Shown piece after piece: positions 5,006 to 30,584 of a DNA stretch of 30,584 bases; the first letter of the stretch is position 1, and the number at the start of each line of letters is the position of its first letter. Position numbers and translations under genes: made by a program. The notes beneath the pieces were generated by a model. The model was given only the letters and a program-made list of their open reading frames with translations, was not told the origin of the DNA and made no database searches. The stretch is from a virus: IMG/VR virus record IMGVR_UViG_3300027659_000141, positions 1 through 30,584 of that record; one strand, 5' to 3'.

Positions 5006-7617
5006 TGGCTGATCGCTATTGGATTCTCGGCACAGGGACTTGGGATAGCACCAATACAGTTAATTGGTCTGCCTCATCAGGTGGTTCTGGCGGTGCATCT
5101 GTGCCTACTGCGGCAGACAATGTATTTTTTGACGCAAACTCAAATGTATTAGCTACTGCATTTACAGTCACGATGGCAAATTCGCCAAGGGTCTGTAATG
5201 ACTTTACAGCGTCAGGTCTTGATGGAACGATGACCCTTGCTGGTTCTAGTATTGGATTGACAGTATCGGGCAGTCTTACATTTCAAGCCACAAACTTTAC
5301 TCGCACCTATTCAGGCACAACCACATTTAACGCTACAACAACTGGTAAAACTGTAACAACTAATGGCGTTGGATTTGGTGCGGCAGTTACTTTTGATGGC
5401 ATTGGTGGTGGTTGGACACTTGGTAGTGCTGTAACTGTTAGTGGAACGCTTGGAGTTACTAATGGAACTTTTGATACTTCATCATCAGGAAATTATGCTG
5501 TAACTGCTATTGCTTTATCTTCCAGCAATTCAAACGTAAGAACAATAAATTTAAATGCGTCAACTACTACATTTAGTTCAAATAATTTTGCATGGTTTAT
5601 GATAACCAGCACTAATGCAACATTAAATGCTGGAACATCAACAATTAATCTTTCTAGCGCAAGTGTTATATTTTCTGGTGGTGGGTTAACGTATTACAAC
5701 GTAGCATTTACATCTGTCTCACTAGCTTCACCATCAATCACAGGCGCAAATACATTTAATAATTTAACAATTACTGGTAGAACAACTGTTGGTATTGGCG
5801 TGTTAAGTCTTAGCGCAAACCAAACAATTAACGGAACACTTACAGTAAGTGCGAGTACTGCTTCTGCATTTCGCATATTTATTGCATCTAACACTCTTGG
5901 CACTACACGCACATTAACTTGTGCGGCAGTATCTTTAACTGATACCGATTTTAGAGATATAACTATTGCAGGTGCGGCTTCCCCTGCGTCAGGGACAAGA
6001 CTTGGGGATTGCAAAGGCAACAGCGGCATTACTTTTAATGCGGCTAAAACTGTGTTTTATCGGCAAACAGGTTCTGCTGATTGGGGTGCTACAGGCTCAG
6101 GCTCTTGGTCTGCTACATCAGGTGGTGCATTAGACGCAACTCAGTTTCCATTAGCACAAGATACTGCTGTCTTTCCTGCGGCAACCTACCCTGCATCAGG
6201 TTCAACAACAACTATTAATGCCGCTTATCAAATTGGCACAATAGATATGTCGTTGAGAACGTCAAACACTATGACGTTGGCAACACAAGCAAATCAATTA
6301 GGAATTTATGGCAATTGGATAAATGGCACGGGAATAACAATTTCAGGTACAGGAACTATTTTTTTTGTAGGGCGCACTACACAACAAATTACAAGTTCTG
6401 CAAAAACATTTACTCAACCTATTACAATTATCAGTCCAAGTGGTTCGGTTACTTTGCAAGATGCTTTGACAACAGGCACAGGTGTAGCAACAACATTAAC
6501 TAGTGGCACATTAGATTTAAATGGCTTTACATATACTGTTGGAACTTCTTTTACAACCGCCACAGGCACAAAAAATTTAACTTTTAATGGTGGAACATTA
6601 GTCTGCCCAACAGCCTCAACAACTGCATTTAATAACGCCGCACCAACAGGATTTACTACAACAGCAGGAACAGGCACAGGCACAATCTCCATGACTGCCG
6701 CTACTGCCAAGACATTTGTAGGTGGTGGTTCTACGTTTAACTGCACACTAAACCAAGGTGGCGCTGGTGCATTGACCATCACAGGCTCAAACACATTTAG
6801 CAACATTACCAATACTTATAAAACCACTGGTGCAACGTCTATCCTGTTTACGGCGGCAACAACTAGCACATTTGCCGATTGGAATGCCAGTGGAGAATCC
6901 ACAAGACTTTTAACCATTGGCTCAGTAACGGCGGCAAGCCATACGTTATCCAAGGCAAGCGGTACTGTGGATTCAGACTTTTTGTCTATCAGTAGGTCTA
7001 CAGCCACAGGTGGGGCGGCATGGTACGCAGGCGCAAATTCTACTGATGGTGGGAACAATACAGGATGGTCATTTGCGGCAGCACCGGCTGCATCATCAGG
7101 CTACCCTTATGGTTCGGGTCATTATGGAATTGGACCCTATAACATTGGAAATTTAGTCATTTCTGGCAATGTCAGCACTGGCGCTGTTGGTACACTGCTG
7201 GCTGACAGATCAATTCAAGAAGATGGGACGATTGCCACTGGTAATGTCGGCACTGTCGGATTAACTGTATCTGTTGACATTACAGGCAATGCAGCCACTG
7301 GCGCTGTCAACTCAGTCCTAGTCTCACCAATCATCACCGGCAACGCCGCAACTGGTGCTGTTGGCACTATGGGCGCAGAGGTTATAACATTTCAAGCCAT
7401 TACTGGAGTAAATGGCACAGGAGCTGTAGACAGCGTATCAAATGTCATATCCATAGGGATAATTGGCGTTGAATCTATTGGCGCTGTTGGCACAATGATC
7501 GGGTATGGTTGGGGATCTATACCAAACACATCCGAGAGCTGGACATCAATTTCAGACACATCAGAAAGTTGGACTGATTTGTCGGACAATTCAATCACTT
7601 GGCAAGAGGCCGCGTAA
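5005..7617 (+). CDS. Giant repetitive adhesin / tail fibre-like protein
   Basis: An 870-residue Thr/Ser/Gly/Asn-rich protein that is almost all short beta strands, as in beta-helix or beta-solenoid fibres. A module at about residues 4-45 (YW-x-x-GTGTWDSTNTVNWS, then AADNVFFDAN) recurs at about 350-395 (ADWGATGSGSWSATSGG, then AQDTAVFPA), so the long solenoid was built by duplication. The last 155 residues hold GNAATGAVGT-like repeats and three SESW/SITW-type tryptophan repeats. Such proteins are usually exposed on the virion and bind the host surface. The gene is noticeably more A/T-rich than its neighbours, which fits rapid exchange of host-range genes. Confidence 0.75.
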   Translation: MADRYWILGTGTWDSTNTVNWSASSGGSGGASVPTAADNVFFDANSNVLATAFTVTMANSPRVCNDFTASGLDGTMTLAGSSIGLTVSGSLTFQATNFTRTYSGTTTFNATTTGKTVTTNGVGFGAAVTFDGIGGGWTLGSAVTVSGTLGVTNGTFDTSSSGNYAVTAIALSSSNSNVRTINLNASTTTFSSNNFAWFMITSTNATLNAGTSTINLSSASVIFSGGGLTYYNVAFTSVSLASPSITGANTFNNLTITGRTTVGIGVLSLSANQTINGTLTVSASTASAFRIFIASNTLGTTRTLTCAAVSLTDTDFRDITIAGAASPASGTRLGDCKGNSGITFNAAKTVFYRQTGSADWGATGSGSWSATSGGALDATQFPLAQDTAVFPAATYPASGSTTTINAAYQIGTIDMSLRTSNTMTLATQANQLGIYGNWINGTGITISGTGTIFFVGRTTQQITSSAKTFTQPITIISPSGSVTLQDALTTGTGVATTLTSGTLDLNGFTYTVGTSFTTATGTKNLTFNGGTLVCPTASTTAFNNAAPTGFTTTAGTGTGTISMTAATAKTFVGGGSTFNCTLNQGGAGALTITGSNTFSNITNTYKTTGATSILFTAATTSTFADWNASGESTRLLTIGSVTAASHTLSKASGTVDSDFLSISRSTATGGAAWYAGANSTDGGNNTGWSFAAAPAASSGYPYGSGHYGIGPYNIGNLVISGNVSTGAVGTLLADRSIQEDGTIATGNVGTVGLTVSVDITGNAATGAVNSVLVSPIITGNAATGAVGTMGAEVITFQAITGVNGTGAVDSVSNVISIGIIGVESIGAVGTMIGYGWGSIPNTSESWTSISDTSESWTDLSDNSITWQEAA
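7150..7617 (+). repeat. C-terminal coding repeats of the adhesin
   Basis: Six imperfect copies of a roughly 20-25 residue unit with a G-x-x-x-x-GAV/NV-G-T-x core (for example STGAVGT, ATGNVGT, NAATGAVNS, NAATGAVGT, GTGAVDS, SIGAVGT) are followed by three copies of a shorter unit ending in Trp (NTSESW, DTSESW, DNSITW). The DNA copies are diverged, so this is an old repeat and not a recent tandem expansion. Confidence 0.7.
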
Positions 7618-21214: not shown

Positions 21215-21332
21215 TGACATCAACAAGTCCGATGATGAGTTGGCACAATTCGAATGACTCATCATTTGATGGGTTTAATTCTATGATTTGCGCTTTTTCC
21301 AAAGCCATGTCTACATAATCTTTATCCATCAT
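21174..21332 (-). CDS. 52-aa last gene of leftward operon (L7)
   Basis: A short leftward gene encoding 52 residues (MMDKDYVDMALEKAQIIELN, then a helical ESFELCQLIIGLVDVINKLE segment and a Ser-rich end). The first ATG overlaps the stop of L6 by four bases and has a GGAGA five bases upstream in the end of L6, so it should be translated by coupling. It runs 41 bases into the 3' end of the rightward virion operon, so the two transcripts are convergent and overlapping. No family recognised. The acidic two-helix look would suit a small partner or inhibitor protein. Confidence 0.6.
   Translation of the reverse strand: MMDKDYVDMALEKAQIIELNPSNDESFELCQLIIGLVDVINKLESLQQASSS
21232..21265. terminator. 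Hairpin between convergent operons
   Basis: ATGATGAGT (21232-21240) and ACTCATCAT (21257-21265) form nine base pairs around a 16-base loop, 17 bases after the rightward virion stop at 21214. The rightward side is followed by TTTGATGGGTTTAATT, only partly T-rich, and the leftward side lacks a T-run. It is a possible weak terminator for the virion operon inside the coding part of L7. Confidence 0.4.
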
Positions 21333-21697
21333 CTATCTCCAAACAGCGCAGCCACCAGCGGATCGCGCTTGATCTTCCACTTCTTTGCTCTTTCCTTTGC
21401 CATGCGAAAAGCATGATCGTCAAGGGACTCTTTGGCTCGCCAGCGTTTGAGCCTCTCTTGCGCCGTCAGAGGTTTAGGCTTGACGGCATCAGTGCCTATC
21501 CCATGCCGGTACACGGCCACCATCACATTGCCTGATCTGCGCCACTCTTGGATGTGGACAATGCCCTGCTTACGCAATTTGTTGATCAGTATCTGAGCTG
21601 ATCTTTCGGTGCAGTACACCTTGGCGGCAACCTCTGGCGCCGTACAGCCGACACGCTGGAGCAGATCGATGATGCGTGGCAGCCTGACAGACTTCAT
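21329..21697 (-). CDS. Winged-helix DNA-binding protein (L6)
   Basis: A 122-residue basic protein. Residues 5-60 form a likely winged helix: LPRIIDLLQRVGCTAPEVAA as first helices, VYCTERSAQILINKLRKQG as recognition helix, and IVHIQEWRRSGNVMVAVYRHG as the wing. The C-terminal half is very basic (RLKRWRAKESLDDHAFRMA, KERAKKWKIKRDP) and ends LVAALFG, an ending I recall in phage wHTH proteins. It may repress the switch region or act on DNA elsewhere. It is coupled to L5 and L7 by four-base overlaps and is the only recognisable regulator-sized protein in the leftward operon. Confidence 0.75.
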   Translation of the reverse strand: MKSVRLPRIIDLLQRVGCTAPEVAAKVYCTERSAQILINKLRKQGIVHIQEWRRSGNVMVAVYRHGIGTDAVKPKPLTAQERLKRWRAKESLDDHAFRMAKERAKKWKIKRDPLVAALFGDR

Positions 21698-21843
21698 TTA
21701 TTCTTTTCTTTCTGAATACCTGCACTCAATTGCAACAGCATACGCATCCACTTCACACCGCCCAAGCGAACATATTCTGCATATTCGGATTGGGTCAGGC
21801 GCAGCGTGATGGCGCGTCCCAGCTCTGTCTTCTCTTTAACCAT
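21694..21843 (-). CDS. 49-aa ribbon-helix-helix-like protein (L5)
   Basis: A leftward 49-residue gene (MVKEKTELGRAITLRLTQSE, YAEYVRLGGVKWMRMLLQLS, then a Lys/Glu tail). The GRAITLRLTQSEYAEYVRLGG pattern, a short strand followed by two helices, is the layout of Arc/MetJ-type ribbon-helix-helix DNA-binding peptides; I recall similar small phage proteins. Its ATG shares one base with the stop of L4 (TGATG) and its stop overlaps L6 by four bases, so it is a real coupled gene. It could form dimers that bind an operator. The DNA target is unknown. Confidence 0.65.
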   Translation of the reverse strand: MVKEKTELGRAITLRLTQSEYAEYVRLGGVKWMRMLLQLSAGIQKEKNK

Positions 21844-21950
21844 CAGTCAACCTCAAAATTTAAAAGTACCCAAACAAGGCAAAACAGCGTGACGATCACC
21901 GCGGCCATGCCGAACAGTGCGATTAAGAAAAAGATTATTGCGGTTTGCAT
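21843..21950 (-). CDS. 35-aa single-pass membrane microprotein (L4)
   Basis: A leftward gene for only 35 residues. Almost all of it is one hydrophobic helix: MQTAIIFFLIALFGMAAVIV followed by TLFCLVWVLLNFEVD. The start lies within the 3' end of L3 (16-base overlap, different frame) and the stop overlaps the L5 start by one base. The close fit at both ends is better than chance for such a short frame. It probably inserts in the inner membrane. Comparable phage microproteins block superinfection or tune host membrane proteins, but no specific target can be read from the sequence. Confidence 0.6.
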   Translation of the reverse strand: MQTAIIFFLIALFGMAAVIVTLFCLVWVLLNFEVD

Positions 21951-22093
21951 AACTTGGCCTCACTTGGTGGTGTCCAACCAAAGCGGCGCCAAGTAGACTG
22001 CACATTGGTTGGTTTTTCGTACTTTAATTGCTTGGCGTAGGCACTTGGGAGCGTCACTTTTGTGCCTGCTGGTGGACGCCAGTCGTGCCTCAT
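21935..22093 (-). CDS. 52-aa basic protein (L3)
   Basis: A leftward gene for 52 residues (MRHDWRPPAGTKVTLPSAYA, KQLKYEKPTNVQSTWRRFGW, ending in a Cys-containing tail). I start at the ATG that overlaps the L2 stop by four bases; an upstream in-frame start at 22147 would lie inside L2 and is not needed. The protein is basic with three Trp and looks like a small nucleic-acid or protein-binding peptide. No family recognised. It is coupled upstream to L2 and overlaps L4 by 16 bases. Confidence 0.65.
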   Translation of the reverse strand: MRHDWRPPAGTKVTLPSAYAKQLKYEKPTNVQSTWRRFGWTPPSEAKLCKPQ

Positions 22094-22359
22094 TTGCCTG
22101 CCGCCAGTAGTTCCATCTCCGCGTCTTTGAGGCGCTCTTGGATGCACTTCATTTCGTAGTCAAGCTGATCGATCTTTGCCTGCATACGCTCGCGGGTGAA
22201 TCTCTCAGCGTGCGCCCATCCGATTACGGCGCCACAGTGGACTGATTTGCTGATGAGCTGCACCATCTCGGCGCGAGTCATCACGCCAATGGCAGTCTCT
22301 TTTGGGGGTGAGAGGCGCAGTACCTCGGCGTCTATTTCGTCTTGCATCTTTTTGCTCAT
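22090..22359 (-). CDS. 89-aa helical protein (L2)
   Basis: A leftward 89-residue gene. I use the ATG at 22359, which overlaps the L1 stop by four bases, giving MSKKMQDEIDAEVLRLS; an in-frame ATG at 22371 lies within L1. After a short Pro-containing segment, a helical core (MTRAEMVQLISKSVHCGAVI, then WAHAERFTRERMQAKIDQL) leads to a coiled coil (DYEMKCIQERLKDAEMELLA). Two Cys are present (in SVHCGAV and MKCIQ). The soluble helical shape would suit a dimer. The function is unknown. Confidence 0.7.
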   Translation of the reverse strand: MSKKMQDEIDAEVLRLSPPKETAIGVMTRAEMVQLISKSVHCGAVIGWAHAERFTRERMQAKIDQLDYEMKCIQERLKDAEMELLAAGK

Positions 22360-22496
22360 GATGACCACCATGCTGAAAGTAAAAGGGCAAAGCCAACGCC
22401 GATGGCGATGGCGGCGAGGAAGTCAAGGGCAGAGTCGGCGCGGCGGTTTAAGTGCCGTCTTTCCTGCTCCATGTAAGGGTGCTGGGTGTGGTTCAT
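22356..22496 (-). CDS. 46-aa membrane peptide, first gene of leftward operon (L1)
   Basis: A leftward 46-residue gene with a textbook ribosome-binding site: AAAGGAG eight bases before the ATG. It has a polar basic N-terminus (MNHTQHPYMEQERRHLNRRA) followed by one hydrophobic helix (LDFLAAIAIGVGFALLLSAW) and ends in WSS. The N-terminal part is probably cytosolic. The stop overlaps L2 by four bases. As the first gene behind a strong promoter it should be made early and in quantity. The function is unknown; a membrane-acting early phage peptide is the best description. Confidence 0.7.
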   Translation of the reverse strand: MNHTQHPYMEQERRHLNRRADSALDFLAAIAIGVGFALLLSAWWSS

Positions 22497-22527
22497 TTCA
22501 AAGTCTCCTTTAATTAATGACAGAAGA

Positions 22528-22555
22528 ATCATATCATCTATGACTAAGTCGTCAA
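22528..22555 (-). promoter_or_regulatory. Leftward sigma70-type promoter
   Basis: On the minus strand TTGACG (22550-22555) and TATGAT (22528-22533) are separated by 16 bases; each box matches five of six consensus positions. Transcription would begin near 22521, giving a leader of about 25 bases to L1 with its AAAGGAG. The -35 box lies within the dyad at 22553-22577. Confidence 0.7.
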
Positions 22556-22577
22556 CAATTATTTAAAAATATTGTTG
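22553..22577. promoter_or_regulatory. Dyad operator candidate over the leftward -35 box
   Basis: CAACAAT (22553-22559) and ATTGTTG (22571-22577) form a perfect seven-base inverted repeat around an 11-base A/T spacer, overlapping the leftward -35 box by three bases. The half-site spacing (18 bases centre to centre) is not far from what helix-turn-helix dimers use. The XRE-like protein at 22694, L5 or L6 are possible binders. Confidence 0.55.
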
Positions 22578-22616
22578 TAAACTCAGCATTGGCGGTTTTA
22601 CTGCCAGTTGCCTTTG

Positions 22617-22647
22617 GGGGGTTAGCGCGAGTTAACCCCCTTTTTTT
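22617..22647 (+). terminator. Rightward intrinsic terminator in the switch region
   Basis: GGGGGTTA (22617-22624) pairs with TAACCCCC (22633-22640) and is followed by seven T (22641-22647), a standard rho-independent terminator on the plus strand. It stands before the rightward promoter, so it ends some short rightward transcript from 22500-22616 or stops read-through. A second imperfect hairpin (TGGCGG/CTGCCA, about 22590-22606) precedes it. Confidence 0.8.
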
Positions 22648-22656
22648 GCTTTAAAC

Positions 22657-22686
22657 TTGACGCTTTCCACAAAACATGGTTAACAT
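22657..22686 (+). promoter_or_regulatory. Rightward promoter giving a leaderless mRNA
   Basis: TTGACG (22657-22662) and TAACAT (22681-22686, four of six) are spaced by 18 bases. Expected initiation about seven bases downstream coincides with the ATG of the XRE-like regulator at 22694, where no Shine-Dalgarno exists. The same -35 hexamer is used by the leftward promoter. Confidence 0.5.
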
Positions 22687-22693
22687 CTTACTC

Positions 22694-22933
22694 ATGAAAA
22701 CGATATCTCAAGAAGCACTATCCGCAATACGCCACAAGGTTGAATGCGCCGGCTACAGGATGAGCGATGTCTGCCGCGTTGCAGAGATCGATCAGGCGCA
22801 GGTATCTCGCTGGATGTCGGGGACCACAGAGCCATTGTATGGATCAGTAATGCGCTTGGATCAGGCCGCCGATGCGTTGGTATCAGCTCGCCTGATAGTG
22901 CTTAACAAAGCCATGGAGGACGCCGTCAAATGA
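22694..22933 (+). CDS. XRE-like small transcriptional regulator (Cro/CI-like)
   Basis: A 79-residue protein with a central helix-turn-helix at about 22-42 (RMSDVCRVAEIDQAQVSRWM), the S-R-W-M-S-G turn typical of XRE proteins, and a helical C-terminus. I prefer the ATG at 22694 to the in-frame ATG at 22676 because the predicted -10 overlaps the latter and neither has a ribosome-binding site. A leaderless mRNA would resemble that of lambda cI from PRM, although position at the head of the replication operon is more like cro. It overlaps the resolvase gene by four bases. It is the obvious ligand for the neighbouring dyad. Confidence 0.78.
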   Translation: MKTISQEALSAIRHKVECAGYRMSDVCRVAEIDQAQVSRWMSGTTEPLYGSVMRLDQAADALVSARLIVLNKAMEDAVK

Positions 22934-23415
22934 GTACATTTAAGCCGCGAAGAATCCTCGGTATTGATGTTGGATTGTCGGGCGCCATAGCAATGATGCA
23001 GGGCGAGACTCTCACAGGCATTGTGGATATGCCCACAGTCACGCTGACACGCAATGGCGCAGCCAAGCGTCAGATCAGCATCCCCGAGCTGATCGCCATC
23101 ATTGACGAGTTCAAGCCGGACGAGGCTTTTGTCGAAAAAGTGTTTGCAATGAGTGGCCAGGGGGTGACAAGCGTCTTCAGCTTTGGGCGCAGCCTTGGTG
23201 CGATTGAGGGAGTGATCGCCGCGAGATCCATCAAAGCCACTCTGATTACGCCACAGACATGGCAAAAGGCGATGGGCGTGACTGGTGGCAAGGACGGCGC
23301 CAGAGCGCGTGCCATGGAGCTGTTCCCATGGAATGTGGATTACTTCAAGCGTAAGAAAGATGATGGCCGAGCTGACGCTGCGCTCATTGCTTGCTGGGGG
23401 TTACGTCATGGATGA
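22930..23415 (+). CDS. RuvC-like Holliday junction resolvase
   Basis: A 161-residue RNase H-fold nuclease. Motifs: ILGIDVGLSGAIA with Asp13, EAFVEKV with Glu69, and KDDGRADAALIA with Asp145 and Asp149, matching the four acidic metal-binding residues of RuvC-type enzymes. Phage versions cut branched DNA, clearing recombination and replication intermediates before packaging. The expected SVFSFGRSLGAIEG and TPQTWQKAMGV segments are present between motifs. It is coupled by ATGA overlap to the regulator and by eight bases to the next gene. It stands within an early replication/recombination operon. Confidence 0.88.
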   Translation: MSTFKPRRILGIDVGLSGAIAMMQGETLTGIVDMPTVTLTRNGAAKRQISIPELIAIIDEFKPDEAFVEKVFAMSGQGVTSVFSFGRSLGAIEGVIAARSIKATLITPQTWQKAMGVTGGKDGARARAMELFPWNVDYFKRKKDDGRADAALIACWGLRHG

Positions 23416-25361: not shown

Positions 25362-25377
25362 CTGGTAGTGTGTACGC

Positions 25378-25407
25378 GCCGAGGTGTAACAGCCTCGGCT
25401 TTTTTTT
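25378..25407 (+). terminator. Intrinsic terminator after the SSB gene
   Basis: GCCGAGG (25378-25384), an eight-base loop, CCTCGGC (25393-25399) and eight T (25400-25407). It sits between SSB and the methyltransferase without a visible promoter before the next ATG 17 bases later, so it should reduce downstream expression unless antitermination or read-through occurs. Confidence 0.85.
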
Positions 25408-25424
25408 CCTCTAAAAAATACAAC

Positions 25425-26894
25425 ATGAAATATCTCTCACTATGCAGTGGTATTGAGGCGGCAACAGTAGCATGGCATCCCCTTGGTTGGGAAGCAGTAG
25501 CGTATTCGGAGATCGAAAGATTCCCATCAGAAGTGCTGGCACATCATTACCCATCAACGCCAAACCTTGGCGACATGACCAAATTTAAGGAGTGGAATCT
25601 TGGATCAAATGTCGATGTTCTCGTTGGAGGAACACCATGCCAGTCATTCTCAGTCGCAGGACTTAGAAAAGGATTGGATGACCCTCGTGGCAACCTCATG
25701 CTCACCTATCTTGCCATTGCTGACAAATATCGGCCCCGATGGTTGGTTTGGGAGAACGTCCCTGGCGTCCTGTCATCTAACTCAGGAAAAGATTTTGGAG
25801 TCTTCCTCGGGGCGTTGGGGGAACTCGGGTATGGGTTCGCATACCGCGTTCTTGACGCTCAGTATTTCGGAGTGGCCCAAAGACGCAAGCGTGTGTTCGT
25901 TGTCGGATACCTTGGAGACTGGCGAGCTGCCGCAGCGGTTCTTTTTGAGCGCCACAGCCTGCAAGGGCATCCTGCGCCGAGCAGAGAAAAGAGGGAAGGT
26001 GCTTCCGCAACAATTACAGCGCGCACTGGAATCAGTCGTAACAACCACGGAGAACTTGTAGGTTGGCCTGCTGATATTAGCAGCACATTGAATGCTTCAT
26101 TTGGCTCAAAACTAGGACTAGAAAATCAACATATTAATGCTGATTGTCCAATGTTTGTACCAACAAAAGCATTTTATGAAAGCAGTCTTGCTCAGTACAA
26201 AGAGGCTGATGTTGGCGGGACTCTCAAAGCATCTGGTGGTGTTTTATCAGGCGGTAGTGAAACATTTTTGGCGCAACCCGCATACGGCATACCAGGCAAT
26301 TGGATTGGCCGTAAACCTGAGAATGGTGGCAACGCCACAGAGCCAATGTATGACATTGCACCATGCCTAACCAAAGCAGATCAGCATGGTGTGGCGCAAC
26401 CCATTGCATTCAGCGGTCAAATGTCAAACCCGCAAACAGATGTGGACATGACGCCAACCCTGCAAGCAAAGAACCCTATGGCGGTGGCAGTTGGAGTTGA
26501 CACTTATAACGGCACAGAAACTGGTCAGGTGTCATGCACAATAACTGCTGATGTTGGCGGCCCAACGCATAGCGGGCCAAAGGTAATGCAATCGGTTGTT
26601 GCACCAACCCTTACTGCCGCCAACGATCCAAGCAGATCGCCTCAGTCATCCGAGGTGACGCAACAGGTGTATTCGGTATATCAATCATCCATGGCCGTCA
26701 GAAGACTCACGCCAAAGGAATGCGAGAGACTCCAGGGCTTTCCCGACAGCTACACCGACATCAAAAGCAAAAACAAACCTACACCTGATGGTCCTCGCTA
26801 CAAAGCATTGGGCAACAGCATGGCCGTGCCTGTCATGGCGTGGATAGGGCAACGCATAGAACAAGTAGAGGCAATATGCAAGCAGAACAAATAG
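25425..26894 (+). CDS. DNA C5-cytosine methyltransferase
   Basis: A 489-residue enzyme. I start at the ATG at 25425 (MKYLSLCSGIEAATVAW, motif I); an in-frame start at 25368 would cross the terminator. Catalytic Cys72 is in GGTPCQSFSVAG (motif IV), the ENV of WENVPG is at 110-112 (motif VI), QRRKRVFVV at 152-160 (motif VIII), RRLTPKECERLQGFP (motif IX) and YKALGNSMAVPV (motif X). A long target-recognition region (about 180-430) has several A-P-x-L-T-A or S-x-T-L-x-A-like repeats, as in other phage enzymes. It transfers methyl from S-adenosylmethionine to cytosine and probably protects phage DNA from host restriction. No cognate nuclease is next to it. Confidence 0.92.
   Translation: MKYLSLCSGIEAATVAWHPLGWEAVAYSEIERFPSEVLAHHYPSTPNLGDMTKFKEWNLGSNVDVLVGGTPCQSFSVAGLRKGLDDPRGNLMLTYLAIADKYRPRWLVWENVPGVLSSNSGKDFGVFLGALGELGYGFAYRVLDAQYFGVAQRRKRVFVVGYLGDWRAAAAVLFERHSLQGHPAPSREKREGASATITARTGISRNNHGELVGWPADISSTLNASFGSKLGLENQHINADCPMFVPTKAFYESSLAQYKEADVGGTLKASGGVLSGGSETFLAQPAYGIPGNWIGRKPENGGNATEPMYDIAPCLTKADQHGVAQPIAFSGQMSNPQTDVDMTPTLQAKNPMAVAVGVDTYNGTETGQVSCTITADVGGPTHSGPKVMQSVVAPTLTAANDPSRSPQSSEVTQQVYSVYQSSMAVRRLTPKECERLQGFPDSYTDIKSKNKPTPDGPRYKALGNSMAVPVMAWIGQRIEQVEAICKQNK
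25600..26061 (+). CDS. Embedded overlapping gene inside the methyltransferase
   Basis: A 153-residue frame lies wholly inside the methyltransferase gene, shifted to another frame. It starts at TTG, with AAGGAG seven bases upstream (25587-25592), an ideal ribosome-binding site; ATG codons follow at residues 4 and 6. The protein (for example EEHHASHSQSQDLEKDWM, WFGRTSLASCHLTQEKILES, SVCSLSDTLETGELPQRFFL, SATACKGILRRAEKRGKVLP) resembles proteins annotated as hypothetical in other phages, as I recall, including the FLS-x-x-A-C-x-G-ILRRAEKRGK end. Conservation may be a by-product of the methyltransferase frame, so translation is not certain. The function is unknown. Confidence 0.5.
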   Translation: MDQMSMFSLEEHHASHSQSQDLEKDWMTLVATSCSPILPLLTNIGPDGWFGRTSLASCHLTQEKILESSSGRWGNSGMGSHTAFLTLSISEWPKDASVCSLSDTLETGELPQRFFLSATACKGILRRAEKRGKVLPQQLQRALESVVTTTENL

Positions 26895-28921
26895 CCAAGA
26901 GCTTGGGCAACGCGAAAAGAGCCAACGGCCAATGGGTAGCAAGTTGCCCAGTGCCGAGTCACGGCAAAGGCAACGGCGACAAGAATCCAAGTCTCAGCGT
27001 ACACATCGATGACAGTGGCAAGCCACTCTTCCACTGCCACAGCGGATGCACTCAGGAGTCAGTATTCCAAACCATCAGGGATATGCAGCTCTTACCCGAA
27101 CTGGAAGAGCGCCCCGATCCACTCGCCAACATCAAGCCATTACCCAAAGTCGAATTCCAGCAGGAATGGCAGTATCAAGACGAGGACCGCGTCACAGTCT
27201 TTGTCAAGCACCGGCTGCGCGTAGGGGAGTCTGGAAAGACTTATAGGCTCTACAAGATAGACAGTGACGGCAAGCGACACCCGACATTGGGTGACGCAAG
27301 AATAGTCCCATACAAGTTACCCGAGCTGCTGGACGCGAAGACGGCGGGAAGAATAATTTATTTGGCCGAGGGCGAAAAGGCGGTGGACGCGCTGATGTCA
27401 CTCGGCGTGGTGGCGACCACCGCGCACAGTGGCGCCGGCCATTGGCCAGAGGCCATCACCGAATACTTTGCTGGCGCCAACGTGGTGATCCTGCCCGACA
27501 ACGATTTGAGTGGATGGTCATACGCACGCAAGGCAGCAGAGGCCATACTGCCCATCGCCAAGGCGGTCAAGGTGGTAGACCTCGGACTGCAAGAGCAAAA
27601 GGCAGACGCCTATGAATTCATTGAGGCAGGCGGCGGACGCGCAGAGCTGGCGGCGTTGGTCAAGGCAGCGCCAAGGATCACCAGTGTGGATGATGTAACG
27701 ATACCCGAAAGACTACAGGCGATTCAACCGAATGCGCCAATTGATGTGCCGCAACCACAGGTAGAGGACATCGCCAAAGAGTTCGCGCCAGACCCGCCAA
27801 AGCAGGCAGACAAACCCAAACCCGCCAAGACCATCAAGATTGAATCTTGGGACAACATACAGGATGAGCCAGTCGAGTGGCTGATTGAGGGTGTCATCCC
27901 CAAAGGATCATTCACGGCGTTGTATGGACCGCCTGGTAGCTTCAAGTCATTCATAGCCTTAGACATTGCCGAGGCCATAGCCACAGGCAGATCATGGATG
28001 GGTAGACCAGTCAAGCAGACAGGCGCGGTGCTGTACTTGGCCGGTGAGGGCTTTGGCGGTATCGGCGCAAGGATCAAAGCCTGCAAGATGCACCACCAGA
28101 CTGAGGATGGAGCGCCGATATATATCGTCAGACACCAGCTCAACCTTAGATCCAGTGCCGAGGACTTCAACGCGCTGATGATGGCTGTGGTCACGCTAGT
28201 GGAGCAGACAGGCATGGAGTTCAGCCTCGCCATTGTGGACACGCTCGCCAGAGCATTTGGCGGCGGTAACGAGAACAGCTCAGAAGACATGGGCGCATTC
28301 ATCACGGCCATGGGTAAGGTGCAGGAATTCCTTAACTGCGCCTTGATGGTGCTGCATCACAGCGGCAAAGACGCCGCCAAAGGACTGCGCGGTCATTCCT
28401 CATTGCTTGGCGCGGTAGATACAGAGCTGGAGCTGCTGCGCTTTGATGAGCAGCTCAAAGGCGTGATCACCATCAGCAAGCAAAAGGATGGCGCCGACAA
28501 CGAGCGATTTGGCTTTGAGATGGTGGAGGTAGAGATCAGGCCAGCAGGCTTGGCCTTAAGCGATCCAGTGGTCAGCTTGGCGGTGCAGTCATCCGATGAC
28601 ACGCATATTGAGCCATCCAAGGCCAGCAAAGGGAACTCTGGAAAAGGAAAAAATCAGCGACTTGAGATGCTTTGCTTAGAGAAGATGGTCAAAGAGCATG
28701 GAGTGCCAAAGTACATCGATGGTTTACAACGCCATGCGATCAGATTGGAGCAGTGGAGGCAGGAATTGTGGTCAAAGATGGGGTGTACCGACGAGGATAA
28801 AGGCACGTTCAAGACGGCATGGCATCGCGCAAAGCAGCGACTGATTGAGTCAGGTGAGGGTGCGATCAGGGATGATTTTGTATGGTTACAGTTTAAAAGC
28901 AGCGACTTTGAGGCTGGATAA
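26876..28921 (+). CDS. Primase-helicase (T7 gp4-like fusion)
   Basis: A 681-residue fusion; the start at 26876 lies just inside the end of the methyltransferase and puts the zinc finger at the expected distance. Zinc ligands are Cys24, His29, Cys54 and Cys58 (SCPVPSH, FHCHSGC). A TOPRIM fold follows with YLAEGEKAVDAL (Glu165) and ILPDND (Asp208, Asp210). A Pro-rich linker spans about 285-320. The helicase is RecA-type with Walker A GPPGSFKS (351-358), Walker B LAIVDT (451-456) and HHSGKDAAKGLRGHSSLLGA as motif 3/sensor. The C-terminus carries a Gly/Ser/Lys linker and a basic helical domain. It unwinds and primes the phage replication fork, with a host or missing polymerase. Confidence 0.9.
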   Translation: MQAEQIAKSLGNAKRANGQWVASCPVPSHGKGNGDKNPSLSVHIDDSGKPLFHCHSGCTQESVFQTIRDMQLLPELEERPDPLANIKPLPKVEFQQEWQYQDEDRVTVFVKHRLRVGESGKTYRLYKIDSDGKRHPTLGDARIVPYKLPELLDAKTAGRIIYLAEGEKAVDALMSLGVVATTAHSGAGHWPEAITEYFAGANVVILPDNDLSGWSYARKAAEAILPIAKAVKVVDLGLQEQKADAYEFIEAGGGRAELAALVKAAPRITSVDDVTIPERLQAIQPNAPIDVPQPQVEDIAKEFAPDPPKQADKPKPAKTIKIESWDNIQDEPVEWLIEGVIPKGSFTALYGPPGSFKSFIALDIAEAIATGRSWMGRPVKQTGAVLYLAGEGFGGIGARIKACKMHHQTEDGAPIYIVRHQLNLRSSAEDFNALMMAVVTLVEQTGMEFSLAIVDTLARAFGGGNENSSEDMGAFITAMGKVQEFLNCALMVLHHSGKDAAKGLRGHSSLLGAVDTELELLRFDEQLKGVITISKQKDGADNERFGFEMVEVEIRPAGLALSDPVVSLAVQSSDDTHIEPSKASKGNSGKGKNQRLEMLCLEKMVKEHGVPKYIDGLQRHAIRLEQWRQELWSKMGCTDEDKGTFKTAWHRAKQRLIESGEGAIRDDFVWLQFKSSDFEAG

Positions 28922-29054: not shown

Positions 29055-29723
29055 ATGGCAACAAAGAGAGCATCAAACAAGCATCCAGTAGTGGAGCATC
29101 CAAGTCCAAAGGCAGATCCTTGGACGATTCACGTTCAATCAAAACTGGTGGAGTTGGAGTCGGTCAAAGCCGCCAGCGATAGGAAATGGGGAGAAAATCG
29201 ACTGACTACTTTAGTAAGCAGTGAGCTGAGAGAGAAATTTTGGCTACAGAGCAGCAGACTGCACCAAGCGATGGCGGCCAAAGATCAGTCGAAGTTCGAT
29301 TCAAGCGTGGCGGGAATGATCCGAGCGTATGCCGCGTTGGATCAGTGGGCAATTGAAGAGGGATTGGAGCCAGCGTCAACCATACCGAGGATTGAGTGGG
29401 AAATGCAGAATGGTCAGACTATGGTCATTGTGCGAACAGTCAACGAGGCAGTAGCGATACAGACTCAGCGTCAGGACTTGGCGAATCATCACATTTGGTC
29501 AATGCAGGAGATGGAGGTCTTTATGTCGGACGAGGGTGTGCAGCATCTGATCAAGGCCAAGGCGCTTGTGCCTACAGCTCAAGTCACCAAATACAAGCAC
29601 AAGCTCGGTGGCGCAACAGGCTTTGATGACTTTGTTGATGACCTCACTTTCAGCGACAATGACACTATGGACTACAAGTTCAACAGCAAACAAGCAGAGA
29701 GGTTCAGAGATGGCCAAATTTAA
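29055..29723 (+). CDS. Conserved phage protein before the terminase, unknown
   Basis: A 222-residue protein. The N-terminus is basic and disordered. A helical core (about 45-115) has LREKFWLQSSRLHQAMAAKD and SVAGMIRAYAALDQWAIEEG, followed by a strand pair with GQTMVIVRTVNEAVAIQ and an IWSMQEMEVFM helix. I recall proteins with the same K-F-W-x-Q-x-x-x-L-x-x-A-M and R-A-x-A-A-L-D segments near the terminase of proteobacterial phages, with no function assigned. A role in packaging or as an early regulator is inference. The last 14 bases overlap a possible 29-residue gene. Confidence 0.75.
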   Translation: MATKRASNKHPVVEHPSPKADPWTIHVQSKLVELESVKAASDRKWGENRLTTLVSSELREKFWLQSSRLHQAMAAKDQSKFDSSVAGMIRAYAALDQWAIEEGLEPASTIPRIEWEMQNGQTMVIVRTVNEAVAIQTQRQDLANHHIWSMQEMEVFMSDEGVQHLIKAKALVPTAQVTKYKHKLGGATGFDDFVDDLTFSDNDTMDYKFNSKQAERFRDGQI

Positions 29724-29802: not shown

Positions 29803-30234
29803 ATGCCAGGCACGCCAAAGCGCAGGAAAGATGTTGCTTTTCTCAATGAGATGCCAGAAGAGATGATCTTCAGCATGGTAGAGAGTGGCCGAAGCATTGC
29901 AGATATATGCATCGATCTGGGCATCAGTAAACGTGCGCTAGACGATTGGATTGATGAAAACGATCATGGTGCTATGATTACACGCGCGCGCACGCGTGCC
30001 GCCGATCTGATGGCTTGCGACACGATAAAGATCGCTGACGGCATGGAGGTTGACCATCCGCAGCGCGATGTCCAGCGCATCCGCACTCGCCAGTGGCTGG
30101 CCGAGAGGTGGGATCAGAAGACTTATGGCTTACAAAAGGCGCAGCAGATCAACATCAACGTGCAAGACCTACGCATGGCCGCGTTGCGCCATGTCGAGGT
30201 CATTGATGACTTATCCACAGAAAATGGCGCATGA
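29803..30234 (+). CDS. terS: Terminase small subunit
   Basis: A 143-residue protein with a helix-turn-helix at about residues 28-53 (ESGRSIADICIDLGISKRAL), a helical oligomerisation region (AMITRARTRAADLMACDTIK, then DVQRIRTRQWLAERWDQKTY) and a beta segment near the end (QININVQDL). This order and the R-x-R-x-R-A-A-D-L motif match many proteobacterial phage small terminases. It recognises the packaging site on phage DNA and guides the large subunit. The gene's last bases contain a perfect DnaA box, and an origin-like region follows it. Expected TerL should start soon after, and a possible N-terminus is seen at the window edge. Confidence 0.82.
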   Translation: MPGTPKRRKDVAFLNEMPEEMIFSMVESGRSIADICIDLGISKRALDDWIDENDHGAMITRARTRAADLMACDTIKIADGMEVDHPQRDVQRIRTRQWLAERWDQKTYGLQKAQQININVQDLRMAALRHVEVIDDLSTENGA

Positions 30235-30404
30235 TGTACACATTGCCCTGTGGACAACCCCAATCTGCCTGTTTATTAAGCGAAACAGGCCGAGTTATCC
30301 ACAATATAGTTAACATAATAGTCATTGTATTAAACCGATTATGTAAGGCTCATGTAAGAAAGCATATAGATCAATGACTTACAGACGTATCGACCTGTGG
30401 ATAA
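30211..30404. other. Origin-like DnaA-box cluster with AT-rich stretch
   Basis: TTATCCACA occurs perfectly at 30211-30219 (plus), 30295-30303 (plus) and 30396-30404 (minus), with a near match, TTGTCCACA, at 30249-30257 (minus). Between the boxes, 30301-30360 is only about 27% G+C by count and carries an ATGTAAG direct repeat (30341, 30352). This is the arrangement of a DnaA-dependent replication origin with an unwinding element. Packaging-site function is the alternative. Confidence 0.65.
30267..30290. repeat. Perfect inverted repeat after terS
   Basis: GCCTGTTT (30267-30274) and AAACAGGC (30283-30290) are perfect inverted repeats around eight bases. No T-run follows on either strand, so it is not a standard terminator. 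It lies between DnaA boxes and may be part of the origin or a binding site of the terminase. Confidence 0.5.
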
Positions 30405-30417
30405 CTTTTCGGCTGTT

Positions 30418-30519
30418 TACTGGCCGCCGGCGGCTGGCCGTGGCTGCCGTGGCCGCGCCGAGCCCCCCCTTGCTCGCGGCGGCGGGGGCGGCTGATGCAG
30501 CACCTAAACACATATCGCC
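30418..30519. other. Extremely GC-rich, C-tract noncoding stretch
   Basis: From about 30418 the composition jumps: 30421-30480 contains only nine A or T bases in sixty (85% G+C), in GGCCG/GGCTGGCCG-like repeats and a run of seven C. No convincing gene was found here. It could be a packaging (cos/pac) site, an origin element or a chimeric/host-derived end. Confidence 0.5.
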
Positions 30520-30584
30520 ATGAGCAACCCCACCCCCCTACCCCCCACCGCGCAAAAGCGCCCCCCGAAAAAAAATTCGAATGA
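30520..30584 (+). CDS. Partial ORF, possible TerL N-terminus
   Basis: An ATG at 30520 opens a frame that runs to the window edge (21 complete codons: MSNPTPLPPTAQKRPP, then Lys/Asn/Ser). The frame is closed upstream by a TAA at 30505. There is no clear Shine-Dalgarno. A basic, Pro-rich beginning is compatible with a large terminase N-terminus, and gene order (after TerS, before portal) predicts TerL here. Nothing of the ATPase is visible, so the call is positional. Coding by chance in this C-rich DNA is also possible. Confidence 0.35.
   Translation, partial: MSNPTPLPPTAQKRPPKKNSN

Follow-up and report, generated by a model that had tools for sequence, protein, structure and literature searches.

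The cer site of ColE1 and the psi site of pSC101 each consist of a XerC arm, a centre of 6–8 bp and a XerD arm; they lie on small circular replicons that have no recombinase of their own, and they are flanked by sites for host proteins (PMC11724359, PMC5357621). Next to the XerC arm, cer and psi have accessory sequences to which PepA binds along with ArgR or ArcA, and their carriers are plasmids. Origins of the pSC101, P1 and RK2 type depend on host DnaA, some also on IHF, and combine several DnaA boxes with an AT-rich stretch and an IHF-like site; DnaA boxes and IHF act in such plasmid origins, and the position and orientation of the boxes matter (PMC4980987). The datA locus of E. coli has DnaA boxes and an IHF site with important spacing (PMC4585315), has no Xer site, and acts on host DnaA, not as an origin. 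Filamentous phages, gokushoviruses and tailless vibriophages carry a 28-bp dif-like site, have no integrase, and integrate at the host dif (PMC2731167, PMC7062461, PMC9966536).

A conserved region of about 200 bases between the packaging genes of a tailed phage seems to borrow both the DnaA and the XerC/XerD systems of its host. By sequence, this module comprises four DnaA boxes in fixed geometry, together with an AT-rich stretch, an IHF-like site, and a dif-like Xer site of 28 bp whose XerC and XerD arms are of Comamonadaceae type and whose 6-bp centre varies. It shares with cer and psi the order of arms and centre, the absence of a recombinase from its replicon, and the flanking sites for host proteins, but its flanking sites are DnaA boxes, most of which lie beside the XerD arm, and it is carried by a tailed phage. 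It resembles the plasmid origins in its boxes, AT-rich stretch and IHF-like site, but no plasmid Rep initiator gene was recognised with it, nor any clear array of Rep iterons besides two ATGTAAG repeats. It has in common with the integrating phages the 28-bp dif-like site and the lack of an integrase, but differs from them in that the XerD arm is intact, the centre is rarely host-like and a DnaA-box array is present. Sinorhizobium phage phiM5 and the LUZ24-like podoviruses have related TerL (55% for phiM5) and major capsid (50%) proteins. Unlike the phage described here, phiM5 has genes for an integrase and a DNA polymerase A, as well as direct terminal repeats beside terL, and it lacks a DnaA-box cluster.

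Origins of the DnaA type and Xer sites are each well known. A partial survey of the open-access literature found no description of a DnaA origin and a Xer site fused with fixed geometry in tailed phages. A composite DnaA–Xer site, if real, would add a new type to the known control elements.

The terS–terL region

The window, the whole stretch of 30,584 nucleotides that was analysed, is a linear IMG/VR fragment of a tailed phage, an uncultured bacterial virus. Its left part holds scaffold and major capsid genes, and its right part holds a primase-helicase gene and terS and breaks off just inside terL. In a near relative, L002, the sequence starts ahead of terS, covers all of terL and reaches the portal gene; the piece missing from the window genome is therefore the one from terL to portal. 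The tailed phages that carry the module are about 34–38 kb. A first-pass annotation had placed at 30211–30404 a set of four DnaA boxes (three perfect, one a near match), a stretch of 27% G+C and ATGTAAG repeats, beside the terminase genes and with one box in the coding end of terS. All of these were found there; box 1 lies within terS (29803–30234), and alignment with the complete terL of L002 identified the downstream ORF as the start of terL. The features of this part of the window are:

26840–28921, plus strand: primase-helicase (TOPRIM-like and AAA_25 ATPase), a nearby replication gene
29055–29723, plus strand: conserved 222-aa protein, without a function by annotation, between primase-helicase and terS
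29803–30234, plus strand: terS, terminase small subunit (PHROG 1482, E=9e-15; Pfam Sf6_terminase, E=1e-13), with DnaA box 1 in its 3' end
30211–30219, plus strand: DnaA box 1, TTATCCACA, perfect, inside terS; mean conservation 0.90, high partly because the box is coding
30249–30257, minus strand: DnaA box 2, TTGTCCACA, one mismatch; mean conservation 0.87
30295–30303, plus strand: DnaA box 3, TTATCCACA, perfect
30301–30360, no strand: AT-rich stretch, 26.7% G+C, candidate unwinding region, overlapping the Xer site
30308–30335, minus strand: dif-like Xer site of 28 bp, with XerC arm GTTTAATACAA, centre TGACTA and XerD arm TTATGTTAACT
30341–30358, plus strand: two ATGTAAG direct repeats, 11 bases apart (starts 30341 and 30352), moderately conserved
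30369–30381, plus strand: IHF-like site GATCAATGACTTA, one mismatch to WATCARNNNNTTR
30396–30404, minus strand: DnaA box 4, TTATCCACA, perfect, the least conserved of the four boxes
30463–30488, plus strand: G+C-rich hairpin CCCCCCC-N-GGCGGGGG, located after the module and ahead of terL
30520–30584, plus strand: start of terL, with its ATG at 30520, truncated where the contig ends

Boxes 1, 3 and 4 are the only perfect DnaA boxes in the window, where dinucleotide shuffles predict 0.24, and none of 300 such shuffles had two perfect boxes within 200 bases; the cluster exceeds chance. The AT-rich stretch at 30301–30360 is the 60-mer of lowest G+C and falls within the lowest 0.2% of the window's 60-mers. 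The 222-aa protein is kept down to about 30% identity and is encoded near the primase-helicase and terS in the relatives examined; fold comparison gave no informative match for it. A gene for a C-5 cytosine DNA methyltransferase (25368–26894) lies immediately before the primase-helicase gene.

Relatives of terS were collected from IMG/VR, first 80 and then 117 more through divergent queries, in sets that partly overlap; the conservation figures given here therefore rest on related sequences and are not counts of independent events. In most relatives the boxes have the same places, the same orientations (+ - + -) and the same spacing (38, 46 and 101 bases), as expected if the cluster noted in the first-pass annotation is conserved. 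Measured relative to the Xer site, the spacing from box 1 to box 2 is 38 in 62 of 66 relatives; some relatives have a gap longer by 11 bases, one helical turn. Where they were detected, box 3 starts 13 bases from the start of the Xer site (52 of 52) and box 4 lies 88 bases from it (47 of 47). The position of box 2 holds a perfect TTATCCACA in many relatives, and the IHF-like site is exact to WATCARNNNNTTR in most relatives of the window's own lineage. The array is altered in one lineage (L047, L070 and L080), in which box 3 is lost or boxes have moved, and clade B has a different box pair. Six relatives are circular, and 19 of their 20 perfect boxes lie inside the terS–terL region, which makes up 0.77% of their sequence. 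A contig end that was a chimera with host DNA, one of the refutations that had been foreseen, can be rejected, as dozens of independent contigs run through the region into terL.

A relative with a 68% TerL, MW202879 (L095/L096, turned), has DnaA boxes between the primase-helicase gene and terS (33256–33406 of the turned record). It has no XerD 9-mer, and the Xer site is absent.

The dif-like Xer site

The best-conserved part of the gap is 30310–30333 (0.93, against 0.63 for the unmarked rest). It belongs to the dif-like Xer site, which the earlier reading had missed. The XerD 9-mer TTATGTTAA is exact in the window and occurs once per genome in all six circular genomes, always at this site. Among relatives carrying the Xer site the XerD core is invariant, while the XerC arm and the centre vary; the centres TGACTA, TGTTCA, TCACTA and TGTCCA are found even among close relatives. 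In clade B the entire site is inverted.

The dif of Rhodoferax ferrireducens is ACTTGATACGA TGTATA TTATGTTAAGT (dif table, PMC2731167). Its arms match those of clade B at 21 of 22 positions, the common forms of the window's own lineage at 19–20, and the window at 17; the next-best 28-mer of the window scores 14. For the XerC arm the match is weak in the window (7 of 11) and reaches 10 of 11 in relatives, and the arm stands at the right distance from the XerD arm, with a centre in the 6–8 bp range. Judged by its Xer arms, the phage has a putative host of Comamonadaceae type, and the module may serve as a sequence signature for such hosts. This assignment rests on the relatives, because the window's own arms are marginally nearer to the dif of Sulfurimonas denitrificans (18 of 22). 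A matrix of Xer sites also ranked this site first in the window, again with a weak XerC arm, and with a score well below those of true dif sites. The arms are near-palindromic, and both orientations score as Xer-like.

Arms of the clade B type were also found outside the tailed phages. An inovirus contig, L477 (Zot, Rep_trans), ends at a Comamonadaceae-type dif (6394–6420) with the centre TGTATA, and all 22 arm bases are identical to those of clade B. This contig shows that arms of this type are, as far as sequence goes, those of a real dif in nature. The conserved 24-mer had also been considered as a mere unwinding element. That candidate was rejected: one arm is invariant while the other arm and the centre vary, and in clade B the element is inverted and its arms are those of a dif.

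Occurrence in other phages

A search of metagenomic sequences with Comamonadaceae-type arms and a free centre found at least 120 stretches, from several TerL lineages. DnaA boxes were no part of the search pattern, and nearly all of the stretches have them at fixed offsets; the arms are conserved by construction. The estimated chance expectation for the arm pattern is below one (19.5 specified bases, with an assumed collection size). In one TerL lineage, boxes lie at +38, +79 and +94 in 25 of the 26 non-redundant modules among the matches listed. A second lineage, with a TerL only about 32% identical, has boxes at +79 in 26 and at +38 in 25 of 32 (matches listed). The window's boxes at +78 and +116 are close to the +79 and +117/118 of other lineages. 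Among the matches listed, the Xer site usually precedes the matched terL by some hundreds of bases, up to about 1.2 kb.

Similarity between modules does not follow TerL. The two lineages with the +38/+79/+94 layout have modules with a similarity of 0.47 to each other and of 0.27–0.29 to those of the window's lineage, and yet one of the two has a TerL nearer to the window's lineage. This disagreement suggests that the module may be a cassette exchanged between phage lineages.

The module was not found in plasmid or phage records, and no isolate carrying it was found; plasmid collections contained no TerL above 60% identity. The proposal of the first-pass annotation that the element came from a plasmid or chromosome thus finds no backing, at least for a recent import, in any similar DNA in plasmid or phage records. 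A 38-bp similarity in Acinetobacter records covers part of the query, lies upstream of ttcA, and was judged unrelated.

Perfect DnaA-box clusters had also been described as uncommon in tailed phages that carry their own primase-helicase. A scan of IMG/VR for paired perfect boxes does not bear this out, as most of the matches listed had dense clusters, and the idea that such clusters are rare in phages is corrected. Clusters of this kind are common among viral contigs, mostly with no Xer site. Dense arrays of 4–12 perfect boxes occur in unrelated viral contigs (loci L107–L186, for example L145, L177, L111 and L135), often phased by 11 bases. A different phage, L123, has a DnaA-box cluster and a partial Xer-like site, ACTCAAAACAA CCTTAG TTATGTTAAGT.

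Possible functions of the region

The reading favoured here, with a confidence barely above even, is that the terS–terL gap holds a plasmid-like cis module, in which a DnaA-dependent origin is joined to a cer/psi-like site where host XerCD would resolve phage multimers. Host DnaA would bind the box array, with IHF bending the DNA in the window's lineage. DnaA would then open the AT-rich stretch, the phage primase-helicase would be loaded there, and host DNA polymerase III would copy the circularised genome. When dimer circles form, host XerC and XerD would recombine the two 28-bp copies into monomers, as at ColE1 cer and pSC101 psi. A widespread group of uncultured phages would thus depend for replication and maintenance on two host cell-cycle systems, with neither a polymerase nor an integrase of its own.

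The reliance on host DnaA and the plasmid-like replication that the first-pass annotation had proposed fit the fixed spacing of the boxes, the AT-rich stretch and the IHF-like site. They also fit the gene content, as profile searches of the records found no DNA polymerase of family A, B or III (PolA, PolB, PolIII alpha). A stable plasmid state is at most a possibility: in addition to the missing Rep, profile searches of 14 module-bearing records, some possibly incomplete, found no ParA or ParB. Cumulative GC skew, proposed earlier as a check on the origin, rises steadily with no origin-type turn; since almost every gene is on the same strand, such a turn would be hidden and the skew says nothing about an origin. 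A phage that packages concatemers would gain no obvious benefit from multimer resolution.

The fixed distance from boxes to Xer site suggests that DnaA and XerCD sit in one complex, though a compact origin could look alike. If they do, the constant distance would reflect a single nucleoprotein complex serving both functions. A more elaborate version of this idea is tentative and on balance doubtful: host DnaA would be an architectural accessory factor for XerCD here, or XerCD would gate the DnaA origin, so that copying is coupled to dimer resolution through one complex, in a cassette exchanged between several tailed-phage lineages. The module makes cooperation between DnaA and XerCD testable.

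Integration at a host dif needs homology of the centre next to one arm. It is unlikely, if still worth weighing, that the 28-bp site serves this purpose, with an integrase-less phage inserting itself at the host dif through XerCD and the boxes forming a separate origin. The arms do match a host-type dif, and profile searches found no tyrosine recombinase in any of 32 module-bearing records (18 and 14, possibly incomplete; the count leaves out a nineteenth searched record, MW202879, which is without the Xer site). TGTCCA, a common centre in the window's lineage, and TGTTCA both share the XerC-side TGT with the host centre TGTATA. Insertion by Xer has precedents in filamentous phages, gokushoviruses and tailless vibriophages (PMC2731167, PMC7062461, PMC9966536). 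Most centres, however, resemble TGTATA on neither side, and none of the matches listed (at least 120) has TGTATA; a scan of the viral collection for this host centre found one contig, the inovirus L477. Two scans of 84,980 genomes of bacteria and archaea (GTDB), made with a few short patterns, likewise confirmed no relative of the TerL or major capsid protein. Because the centres rarely match, integration at the host dif is less likely than multimer resolution. A centre that varies freely suits recombination in which both partners are copies of one phage genome, and it counts against insertion at a host dif, although the TGT-type centres of the window's lineage leave a small probability for the latter.

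An action on the host is improbable. In the manner of datA in E. coli, the boxes and the IHF site would stop host initiation, either by titrating DnaA or by stimulating hydrolysis of DnaA-ATP, and the Xer site would be separate. The window array does have both elements in fixed spacing, and spacing is critical in datA (PMC4585315). The match to the IHF site is confined to the window's lineage, however, and is missing from most other module-bearing lineages; four boxes would titrate little DnaA unless copy number were high; and the AT-rich stretch and the Xer site at a fixed distance would be left unexplained.

Least probable of all is an operator, in which the 28-bp element and the boxes control terL transcription, bound by a dimeric phage regulator and DnaA, and resemble dif through their near-palindromic arms: the position just upstream of terL in the window's lineage and the near-palindromic arms would suit this, but no sigma-70 promoter or terminator was found in the terS–terL gap, promoter-like sites in the stretch around it are at chance level, clade B has the site in inverted orientation, another lineage has it some 1 kb away from the matched terL, conservation is asymmetric (a fixed XerD arm, a variable XerC arm and centre), and the clade B arms equal those of an unrelated inovirus dif.

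An Rfam search of the region found no RNA family. The C-run/G-run hairpin at 30463–30488 is present in 70 of 96 relatives and could be a packaging signal or an mRNA structure. Further upstream, at 21329–22940, minus-strand early genes face a plus-strand operon headed by the gene of a small HTH protein whose matches to CII-like proteins are weak, and these facing gene sets are a possible regulatory switch.
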